Source: an uncultured Flavobacteriales bacterium (lineage in GTDB: Bacteria > Bacteroidota > Bacteroidia > CAIKAF01). From it: a DNA stretch of 64,000 bases. Position 1 is the first letter of the stretch, and every line of letters starts with the position of its first letter. The stretch spans positions 1 through 64,000 of the forward strand of contig CAIKAF010000005.1 of assembly GCA_903825395.1 (NCBI GenBank), in the 5' to 3' direction. The position numbers and the translations under genes were made by a program. The notes beneath the pieces were generated by a model. It saw only the letters and a program-made list of their open reading frames with translations. It had not been told where the DNA came from and did not search any database. Positions 4,289 to 51,432 of the stretch are shown piece by piece.

Positions 4289-4436
4289 GCCCGCGGCAGG
4301 GATTGACGAGGCTACCCCGCAAGACGGGCGGCGGATGGCAGCGCGCGGCGAGGAGGCGACCTTGGGAGCCACCGCAGACCGCTGCTGCCCCGCTCGCCCG
4401 GCGCGGAGTAGCCCGGAAAGCCCGGTTGCCGCCCCA
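4289..4436 (+). repeat. GC-rich interspersed repeat B, copy 1
   Basis: A ~150-bp GC-rich element that starts GCCCGCGGCAGGGATTGACG and contains GAGGCGACCTTGGGAGCCAC before ending near GCCCGGTTGCCGCCCC. Related copies lie at 9466-9612, 36043-36192, 38279-38425 and 51288-51432, with a fragment at 11696-11732. It fills most of the gap 4080-4447, upstream of the glycine-rich gene. Open frames inside it are by-products of its high GC content. Confidence 0.9.
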
Positions 4437-9465: not shown

Positions 9466-9612
9466 GGGGCGGCTGACGGGCTTTCCGAGCTTGTCCGCGG
9501 TGGCCGGACGGGGTGGCAGCGGGCTGCGGTGGCTCCTAAAGTCGCCTCCTCGCCACGCGCCACCATCCGCCGGCCTCCTTGCGGGCAAGCTTCGTCAATC
9601 CCTGCCGCAGGG
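9466..9612 (-). repeat. GC-rich interspersed repeat B, copy 2
   Basis: Reverse-oriented copy of repeat B, from GGGGCGGCTGACGGGCTTTC to ATCCCTGCCGCAGGG, with the GAGGCGACTTTAGGAGCCAC core on the minus strand. It sits in the divergent gap between the RmlD-like and DUF2851 genes, so whatever drives the two genes must flank it. Confidence 0.9.
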
Positions 9613-10977: not shown

Positions 10978-11005
10978 GTAGAGACGCACTATTGTGCGTC
11001 TCTAC
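10978..11005. repeat. REP palindrome, GAGACGCAC family, copy 1
   Basis: A perfect-arm palindrome GTAGAGACGCAC-4-GTGCGTCTCTAC. The GTAG tetranucleotide at the foot is the mark of REP sequences handled by RAYT transposases. It lies between the convergent DUF2851 and RAYT genes and supplies the TAG stop codon (11002-11004) of the RAYT gene. Confidence 0.93.
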
Positions 11006-11526
11006 AACGGGGTGTTTTTTCGCCATTTTTGGGGATTGTTTTTTATGTATTTACGTACGGCGATTAACCCGTTTTTATCTCTGATTATTCTGTCGTGAAA
11101 TCGAGGTTGCCATTCAAATTCGATATTATTTAGGTTGGCAAATCGTTTGGTTGCCGATTTAAAGGCACGGATGATGGCCCCTAAATTTTTTGATTGGGGA
11201 CTAAATTGGTTCGGATTCCATTCGTTGTAATCAGGTTTATTGATTTTTATTATGCCGTGAATGTGATCTGGCATAATTACAAATTCATCCAATTCAACAA
11301 ATGGGTAATGCTTTGGGATTTCGGCCCAATTTTTTTGGGCAATTTGCCCCATCGTGGTGGCATGCAGAGACGCACGATTGTGCGTCTCTGCGGCGGTGAC
11401 GATTTTCCCAAAATAAAATTTCCGGTTTTTGGTACAAATGGTTACAAAATACAGGCCATTTGAACCGTAATCATATCCCTTTAATCGGGCTGATGGTATT
11501 CGATATTTGTTTTTGAATTTTTCCAT
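11002..11526 (-). CDS. REP-associated tyrosine transposase (RAYT, Y1_Tnp)
   Basis: A 174-residue IS200-like Y1 transposase of the REP-associated class. After the start chosen here (MEKFKNKYRIPSARL) come the family opening GYDYGSNGLYFVTICTKNR, the HUH-type metal motif (MPDHIHG, His88 and His90), the LGAIIRAFKSA helix, WQPRFHDRII, and the catalytic-Tyr helix RKYIKNNPQKW (Tyr160). Known RAYTs cut and rejoin single-stranded DNA at REP hairpins. A full REP palindrome (11364-11391) lies inside the gene in frame and encodes residues ~46-57 (ETHNRASL), in the variable loop just before MGQIAQ. The stop codon comes from another REP. Four more REPs lie just upstream. All motifs are intact, so it could be active. 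Confidence 0.93.
   Translation of the reverse strand: MEKFKNKYRIPSARLKGYDYGSNGLYFVTICTKNRKFYFGKIVTAAETHNRASLHATTMGQIAQKNWAEIPKHYPFVELDEFVIMPDHIHGIIKINKPDYNEWNPNQFSPQSKNLGAIIRAFKSATKRFANLNNIEFEWQPRFHDRIIRDKNGLIAVRKYIKNNPQKWRKNTPL
11364..11391. repeat. REP palindrome inside the RAYT coding sequence
   Basis: GCAGAGACGCAC-4-GTGCGTCTCTGC. It is the same palindrome as the flanking REPs except that the outermost base pair region is GCAG rather than GTAG. It is read in frame by the transposase gene without introducing a stop. Confidence 0.92.
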
Positions 11527-11607
11527 TGCTCCCCTTTTCCAACCCGAATTATGCAATTGGATTCGTTGTTAGGCAAAAGGTACGCACAAATAGGGAAAAT
11601 TGCCACC

Positions 11608-11634
11608 GTAGAGACGCACAAACGTGCGTCTCTC
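11608..11634. repeat. REP palindrome, GAGACGCAC family, copy 3
   Basis: GTAGAGACGCAC-AAAC-style loop-GTGCGTCTCT. It keeps the GTAG foot on its left side and lies upstream of the RAYT gene. Confidence 0.9.
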
Positions 11635-11663
11635 CAATCCGCCCAAATCAATAGTAGAGAGTA

Positions 11664-11692
11664 GTAGAGAAGCACAAACGTGCGTCTCTCTA
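11664..11692. repeat. REP palindrome, GAGACGCAC family, copy 4 (one deletion)
   Basis: GTAGAGAAGCAC...GTGCGTCTCTC. The left arm differs from the right (GAGAAGCAC against GTGCGTCTC), so the hairpin is imperfect. A fragment of repeat B begins directly after it. Confidence 0.85.
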
Positions 11693-11695
11693 AAC

Positions 11696-11732
11696 CGCCC
11701 GCGGCAGGGATTGACGAGGCTACCCCGCAAAG
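11696..11732 (+). repeat. Fragment of GC-rich repeat B
   Basis: GCCCGCGGCAGGGATTGACG followed by AGGCTACCCCGCAA matches the first ~37 bases of repeat B copy 1, then stops at AAGGAAAAAACG. The break suggests an incomplete insertion or a later deletion inside the REP cluster. Confidence 0.85.
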
Positions 11733-11749
11733 GAAAAAACGATTGGCCC

Positions 11750-11818
11750 AGAGACGCACAATTGTGCGTCTCTATTACCGCCCAAAACAATAGCAAAGAC
11801 GCACGATTGTGCGTCTCT
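11750..11818. repeat. Two REP palindromes in tandem (copies 5 and 6)
   Basis: Copy 5 (11750-11773) and copy 6 (11796-11818) each have GACGCAC-4-GTGCGTC and are followed by ATTACCGCCC or ATTACCGCTC. The second abuts the TAA stop of the next minus-strand gene exactly. Together with copies 1-4 this makes six palindromes within 850 bases of the RAYT gene. Confidence 0.9.
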
Positions 11819-11819
11819 A

Positions 11820-12251
11820 TTACCGCTCCAACCGGTACACCTCGCCCAGGCTGATGCTCATTTCCAGATTACTGCCGCTGCACGTTGTGCTGCCAGATTT
11901 GTCGGGAATTTGCTGATCAACCGTGTAGGTGTAGGGGATATTGCAAGCCAAGCCTGTAGATTTAAAGTCGATGCTTAATGTAGTGCCATTCAGGGTCCAG
12001 CTTAGGTCGTAATACGCTCCGCCAACCCCGCCCAAGATGGCGCATTGATTCTGGCAATCGGATATGCGCAATTCCCCGCTGCCATCGGCATTAAATTGAA
12101 TGTCAGCCGGACATGGAAAAGGGCTGGGATTGAAGGTCCAAGTGCCGGCGATGCAGTCAGACAAATTTTCTTCGCTACCGCAAGAATTGAAAAGCAAACC
12201 GCTCAACAGCATAAGCCAAAGTGAACCGCGAAAAAAAGAAATTTGGGTCAT
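11820..12251 (-). CDS. Hypothetical lipocalin-like lipoprotein
   Basis: A 143-residue protein with a signal peptide and a lipobox-like FNSC motif (Cys at about residue 24), followed by an acidic GSEEN linker that suits an outer-membrane lipoprotein of Bacteroidota. The mature part opens with CIAGTWTFNPSP, continues with an INADGSGELRISDC-like strand and DLSWTLNGTTLSIDF, and ends EVYRLER. This pattern resembles lipocalin-like or META-like small beta-barrel lipoproteins, and six cysteines may form disulfides. Function unknown. Its stop codon is immediately followed by a REP palindrome, so transcripts would end in that hairpin. Confidence 0.8.
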   Translation of the reverse strand: MTQISFFRGSLWLMLLSGLLFNSCGSEENLSDCIAGTWTFNPSPFPCPADIQFNADGSGELRISDCQNQCAILGGVGGAYYDLSWTLNGTTLSIDFKSTGLACNIPYTYTVDQQIPDKSGSTTCSGSNLEMSISLGEVYRLER

Positions 12252-36042: not shown

Positions 36043-36192
36043 GGGGGGCGGTTACGGGCTTTCAGAGCTAGTCCGCGGGTGCCGGCGGCTGGCCCAGCGG
36101 GCTTGCGGTGGCTCCCAAGGTCGCCTCCGCGCCACGCGGGCTCAGGCGCCGCCACCCTTGCGTTCTAGCTTCTTCAATCCCTACCGCGGGCC
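36043..36192 (-). repeat. GC-rich interspersed repeat B, copy 3
   Basis: Reverse-oriented, from GGGGGGCGGTTACGGGCTTT to ATCCCTACCGCGGGCC. It is the most diverged full-length copy (GCGCCACGCGGGCTCAGGCG insertion region). It lies between the divergent ctaB and fibrinogen-domain genes; the rest of the gap shows only AT-rich sequence. Confidence 0.88.
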
Positions 36193-38278: not shown

Positions 38279-38425
38279 GGCCCGCGGCAGGGATTGAAGA
38301 GGCTTGCCCGCAAGGTTGGCGGGGCTTGGCCCGCGCGGCGCGGAGGCGACCTTGGGAGCCACCGCAAGCCCGCTGGGCCAACCCCCGGCAACCGCGGACA
38401 AGCCCTGAAAGCCCGTTTGCCGCCC
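38279..38425 (+). repeat. GC-rich interspersed repeat B, copy 4
   Basis: Forward copy beginning CCCGCGGCAGGGATTGAAGA and carrying GAGGCGACCTTGGGAGCCAC. It ends nine bases before the ATG region of the serine hydrolase gene, whose apparent N-terminal extension is read-through of this repeat. Confidence 0.9.
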
Positions 38426-51287: not shown

Positions 51288-51432
51288 TTGGGGCGGCTGC
51301 CGGGCTTTCTCAGGTAGTCCGCCTTGGCCGAACGGGGTGGCTGCCGGCTGCGGTGGCTCCTCACGTCGCCTCCTCGCCCTGCGCCACCACCCGTCGGCCC
51401 ACGGCGTCCTACCTTGTTCAATCCCTGCCGCA
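51288..51432 (-). repeat. GC-rich interspersed repeat B, copy 5
   Basis: Reverse-oriented, from GGGGCGGCTGCCGGGCTTTC to CAATCCCTGCCGCA, between the convergent M49-like and membrane glycosyltransferase-like genes. Confidence 0.9.

Follow-up and report, generated by a model that had tools for sequence, protein, structure and literature searches.

In-frame REP palindromes inside the gene of a RAYT enzyme are already on record. In Quentin et al. (2018; PMC6006769) they are presented as a unique and predominant feature of TnpA-REP subclass 2.4 (equivalent to RAYT group 4 of Bertels et al.), where they are "generally" located between HuH and Y, and the motifs NH[IFV]H, WQ and YIxNNP are given for this subclass. 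That paper does not list in-gene REPs for subclass 2.2, the subclass of E. coli TnpA-REP. Intragenic GTAG REPs have also been described in host genes, with the GTAG feet acting as stop codons (PMC3733652).

The locus analyzed here belongs to an uncultured Flavobacteriales bacterium and lies in a contiguous stretch of 64,000 nucleotides (hereafter, the window). Compared with subclass 2.4 as portrayed in PMC6006769, it shares the in-frame REP, the double-foot GTAG...CTAC REPs, the WQ and YIxNNP motifs and the occurrence in Bacteroidota and scattered phyla. On the other hand, it differs in the position of the in-gene REP (before HUH), in an HUH motif reading DHIH rather than NH[IFV]H and in a REP family of only six copies, all of them at the gene. 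A preliminary description of this DNA was unaware of the published in-frame REPs; the present analysis adds the pre-HUH placement as a trait of one clade, together with numbers on enrichment, match to the locus's own flank, reading frames and purifying selection. It is unusual for the gene of a DNA-processing enzyme to hold the presumed substrate of that enzyme as coding sequence, and the survey numbers turn a published remark into a testable question, namely selfish tolerance versus self-regulation, which are separable by synonymous recoding.

The RAYT gene and its product

The ORF at 11002-11556 (-) is open to a TTG at 11556; conservation places the start at the ATG at 11526 rather than at this TTG (Table 1). 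The product matches PF01797 just over the cutoff (24.5 bits, cutoff 23); its sole NCBIfam match is NF047646 (REP-associated tyrosine transposase), where its 56.1 bits (E 3.6e-15) fall short of the cutoff (80). The AlphaFold model (mean pLDDT 84.6) is matched best by E. coli TnpA-REP with a REP hairpin (PDB 4er8, subclass 2.2) and next by IS200/IS605 transposases. The fold is the same as in the E. coli enzyme (Z 13.0, 126 residues aligned, 2.9 A), whereas the identity in the structural alignment is 24% and the E. coli REPs are bulged and long. Among 56 relatives P96, H98 and Y170 are invariant and H100 is nearly invariant. By the PF01797 match, these conserved H98, H100 and Y170 residues and the similarity to 4er8, the protein has a Y1 transposase core, and its assignment as a RAYT is made from profile matches and a predicted structure. 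Both WQ and YIKNNP are present, and DHIH is one residue from the listed NH[IFV]H. That the HUH (PDHIHG) and the catalytic tyrosine (YIKNNP) are undamaged, as originally proposed, is borne out by the translation.

Comparison with the copy in a sister genome (G007, 99% identical protein) revealed 6 synonymous and 0 nonsynonymous changes over codons 1-175 (P ~2e-4 under neutrality). The RAYT gene is intact and under purifying selection.

Table 1. Positions of the RAYT gene, the REP palindromes and a second dispersed repeat in the window.
Feature	Position	Strand	Evidence
RAYT / TnpA-REP gene, 174 aa from the conserved ATG	11002..11526	-	ORF, profile matches, fold match, purifying selection
HUH motif codons (HIH, residues 98-100 of the 184-aa ORF)	11257..11265	-	translation, conservation
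Catalytic Tyr codon (Y170, YIKNNP)	11047..11049	-	translation, conservation
REP, GTAG on both ends; overlaps RAYT stop, downstream of RAYT gene	10978..11005	.	pattern search, hairpin fold
REP palindrome inside RAYT gene, GCAGAGACGCAC-AATC-GTGCGTCTCTGC, in frame AETHNRASL(H), both feet GCAG not GTAG	11364..11391	-	pattern search, hairpin fold
REP upstream of RAYT gene, one GTAG foot	11608..11635	.	pattern search, hairpin fold
REP upstream of RAYT gene, one GTAG foot, one stem mismatch	11664..11691	.	pattern search, hairpin fold
REP upstream of RAYT gene, without GTAG foot	11748..11775	.	pattern search, hairpin fold
REP upstream, without GTAG foot, adjoins 3' end of lipoprotein gene 11820-12251 (-)	11793..11820	.	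pattern search, hairpin fold
Copies of the GCGGCAGGGATTGA repeat	4293-4313, 9588-9608, 11701-11721, 36167-36187, 38284-38304, 51411-51431		

A REP family confined to its gene

The six palindromes within 850 bases noted in the preliminary description were recovered by a pattern search as GACGCAC-n4-GTGCGTC hairpins in 10978-11820, five of them perfect and one with a single mismatch. The chance mean is 0.06 per window (at ≤2 mismatches), and none of the shuffles reached 7. Each copy forms a hairpin when single-stranded (z-scores -4 to -8). The count of three copies with a GTAG foot was likewise confirmed: the first carries it on both ends and the third and fourth on one end. The double-foot REP downstream of the gene (GTAGAGACGCAC...GTGCGTCTCTAC) has the form typical of subclass 2.4 / RAYT group 4, and the gene is flanked on its two sides by GTAG-foot palindromes (10978-11005 and 11608-11635). 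A feature missed earlier is that the downstream REP supplies the stop codon of the RAYT gene: the TAG at 11004-11002 belongs to its GTAG foot. Short in-frame palindromes in genes and a TAG stop provided by a GTAG foot are also seen in the GTAG/CGTC intragenic REPs and Rickettsia RPEs (PMC3733652); unlike those cases, which concern unrelated host genes, the window REP is found within the gene that encodes its presumed enzyme, and RAYT genes are the only real coding sequences near these loci to contain such a REP.

Across the full assembly (2.6 Mb, 33 contigs), a search at ≤3 mismatches returned these six places only, all at the RAYT gene. The high-copy dispersal of cognate REPs that usually accompanies RAYT / TnpA-REP genes is therefore not seen in this genome. 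High REP copy number is usual for REPtrons, not required. The preliminary description had named a genome without REPs beyond the cluster as evidence against its reading, and this is literally what the count gave; we do not regard it as decisive, since REPs are few (0-9) throughout the genus and in-gene and flanking copies match each other across many genomes (see below).

The in-frame copy

The in-gene palindrome belongs to the same family as the flanking REPs. It reads GCAG...CTGC, having lost GTAG from both feet through a paired T-A to C-G change, and it lies in the gene without breaking the frame, as in subclass 2.4. Its translation is AETHNRASLH, with ATT and MGQIAQ coming next; the length of about 12 residues given at the outset is thereby corrected to about 9-10. 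In the AlphaFold model the palindrome residues (56-65) fall between strand 50-54 (strand 2) and helix 68-78 (helix A), where they form a turn and the larger part of strand 62-66 and hence the far side of a beta-hairpin before HUH. The insertion precedes HUH instead of lying between HUH and Tyr, the general arrangement in PMC6006769, where the word "generally" does not make it a strict criterion.

The pre-HUH segment is 21 residues long in the commonest relatives, 17 in a sister group and 28 in the window gene, with an overall range of 17-86 and the greatest lengths where copies have multiplied. Many relatives have REP-encoded peptides in this loop or the next one. To the question whether ETHNRASL is an insertion or a recurring feature, the alignment answers with both: judged by segment lengths and by the REP-encoded peptides of relatives, it is an insertion of a recurring kind. 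The sister-group genes L030, L031 and L033 have no insertion at all and are otherwise conserved, and L059-L062 look decayed at the pre-HUH site. As a separate observation, in-gene REPs have multiplied in frame to tandem peptide arrays in L032 and L040 (pre-HUH) and in L047 (post-HUH), giving segments of 64-93 residues.

In-gene palindromes among relatives

Relatives were gathered from order, phylum and genome contigs and reduced to 140 full-length, non-redundant genes; since these were chosen by similarity to the window protein, the proportions below apply to this branch and not to RAYTs in general, and the genes do not count as independent observations. In 77 of the 140 genes the coding core contains a perfect palindrome (arm ≥9). 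The total of 89 such palindromes compares with 2.7 expected when synonymous codons are shuffled. This excess, together with the purifying selection on the gene and its intact, invariant catalytic residues, led us to reject the reading of a pseudogene or of a coding coincidence that happens to resemble a palindrome, which can hardly be credited.

The post-HUH loop holds 80 of the 89 palindromes, most of them starting 8-15 residues past the second His, and seven, the window copy among them, are pre-HUH. With mismatches allowed, a genuine pre-HUH palindrome is found in 11 genes and a post-HUH one in about 95 of the 140 (9 in shuffles), while 35 of the 140 have no in-gene palindrome of any kind. 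Two labels of the tolerant hairpin scan look like chance: "B" for L030 and L031, whose B segment has the REP-free length of 29 residues, and "A" for L102, whose palindrome is an AT-rich non-REP sequence. In the coding for the tree, L102 was recoded as B and L030/L031 were kept as B.

The frames are used unequally, with 59 palindromes read as GTA-GAG, 14 as xGT-AGA and 2 in the remaining frame, both without TAG, which is the filtering of frames expected from the TAG in the foot. The preference for the GTA-GAG frame (xETxxxxSL) could also indicate that the encoded peptide benefits the protein, perhaps as an extension aiding recognition of the cognate REP, the palindrome being kept via its amino acids. 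The retention of SL-like residues and of a nearly constant segment length after palindrome decay in L059, L060 and L062 is in line with this idea. We nevertheless regard it as quite improbable, because the second frame, with unrelated residues (RDAxxxxVST), is used as well, the segment varies as widely as stated above and, in PMC6006769, the variable region of subclass 2.4 sits away from the DNA-binding surface. Moreover, selection on amino acids alone would leave the palindromes open to synonymous change and so would not keep them perfect.

Of 75 in-gene copies, 44 are perfect palindromes with a GTAG foot at each end. The many in-gene copies that are still perfect with both feet would fit a selected control element, in which either the RAYT protein or base pairing with the leader REP of the mRNA would act on the hairpin in the enzyme's own gene or message and limit expression. 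Two further observations point in the same direction. Pre-HUH stems vary among relatives yet stay paired (92% of cells; covariation 0.340 vs 0.121 in shuffles), and in a predicted mRNA fold the leader REP (11608-11635) and the in-gene copy pair around the start codon. We do not read the covariation as proof of compensatory evolution, since independent insertion of differing palindromes would produce it too, and the predicted pairing is not counted in favor of regulation, since REP copies on one transcript will pair in any case. The proportion of relatives lacking an in-gene palindrome, including the close L030, L031 and L033 with their otherwise conserved gene, and the shift of the hairpin between two loops also speak against a control element, which we consider possible, albeit rather unlikely.

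Placement on the tree

A tree was made without both loop regions. Because its columns were few and many of its forks stay open, it allows only a rough count of gains and losses. The window gene falls in an 18-row clade (SH-aLRT 99), eight genes of which have the pre-HUH palindrome, while the remaining 122 tree rows are mostly post-HUH. In its closest clade members the post-HUH segment keeps the REP-free 29 residues. One could imagine that the in-gene REP is a selected cognate label required of RAYT genes in this branch, which the clade of the window gene moved from the usual post-HUH loop to the pre-HUH beta-hairpin, either as a self-binding control element or as a self-template; we hold this to be unlikely.

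Proposed local origin of the in-gene copies

In loci having both kinds of REP, the in-gene palindrome matches its own flank in 28 of 42, as compared with a permutation mean of 5.1 and a maximum of 13 in 2000 permutations. The density of canonical palindromes is 0.78/kb in RAYT genes and 0.66/kb in the non-coding remainder, and there are none in about 320 kb of non-RAYT neighbor ORFs. The only three found in neighbor ORFs lie within the second, palindrome-bearing RAYT genes of the L135 and L155 loci. We also examined 16 REPs at other places in four related genomes, and none falls within a host coding sequence that looks convincing. Around these loci, RAYT genes are the only coding sequences with the REP, which tracks the local REP family and occupies two loops in TAG-avoiding frames.

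Two related genomes illustrate the local behavior. In G007 (L029) a recent local expansion turned the 3' REP into an array of four to five tandem 28-bp units (CACCCCGTAGTAGAGACGCACAATAGTG, about 2546-2690); it replaced the C-terminus of the RAYT protein and left the in-gene copy unchanged. The orthologous spacer of G009 (L188, G009:C40, about 1360-1500), flanked by the lipoprotein gene and the DUF2851 gene, has no RAYT gene and holds two full and one partial REP of the GACGCAA type, the type found inside the genome's own RAYT, located elsewhere.

We consider it probable that the locus is a REPtron, in which a group 4 / subclass 2.4 RAYT with its own double-foot REPs is subject to local copying, tolerated loop insertion and renewal or decay. 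This reading is supported by the palindrome excess, the own-flank match, the restriction of coding copies to RAYT genes, the TAG-free frames, the position of all six copies at the gene, the G007 3' expansion and the RAYT-free G009 spacer with REPs of the type of that genome's own RAYT. It is further supported by the insertion-free L030/L031/L033, the decayed look of L059-L062, the loop position and the 6 synonymous versus 0 nonsynonymous changes. In such a scheme the enzyme would bind and cut REP hairpins as single-stranded DNA and transfer REPs mostly to sites close to its own gene. A copy landing in a surface loop in a TAG-avoiding frame would be harmless and retained; local copying or conversion may then renew in-gene copies and hold them in step with the local REP family, and copies that are not renewed would decay to ordinary loop sequence. 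Between tolerated insertion and self-regulation, the two options offered at the outset, sequence comparison appears to favor the former. Pure tolerance does not by itself explain the many perfect double-GTAG in-gene copies (the 44 of 75 above) or the high occupancy of the post-HUH loop (about 95 of 140).

Other repeats in the genome

The genome's second RAYT (L002, G000:C26:28807-29087) has two in-frame post-HUH palindromes of a different type, one of which (GGGGCAGAC-n6-GTCTGCCCC) belongs to a family of 21 places in the genome. A far commoner dispersed repeat has the core GCGGCAGGGATTGA followed by a variable stretch. A literature search did not find this core in a bacterial context. It occurs at 96 places in the 2.6 Mb genome (≤3 mismatches; control 0), and one of its copies in the window (11701-11721) falls within the REP cluster.
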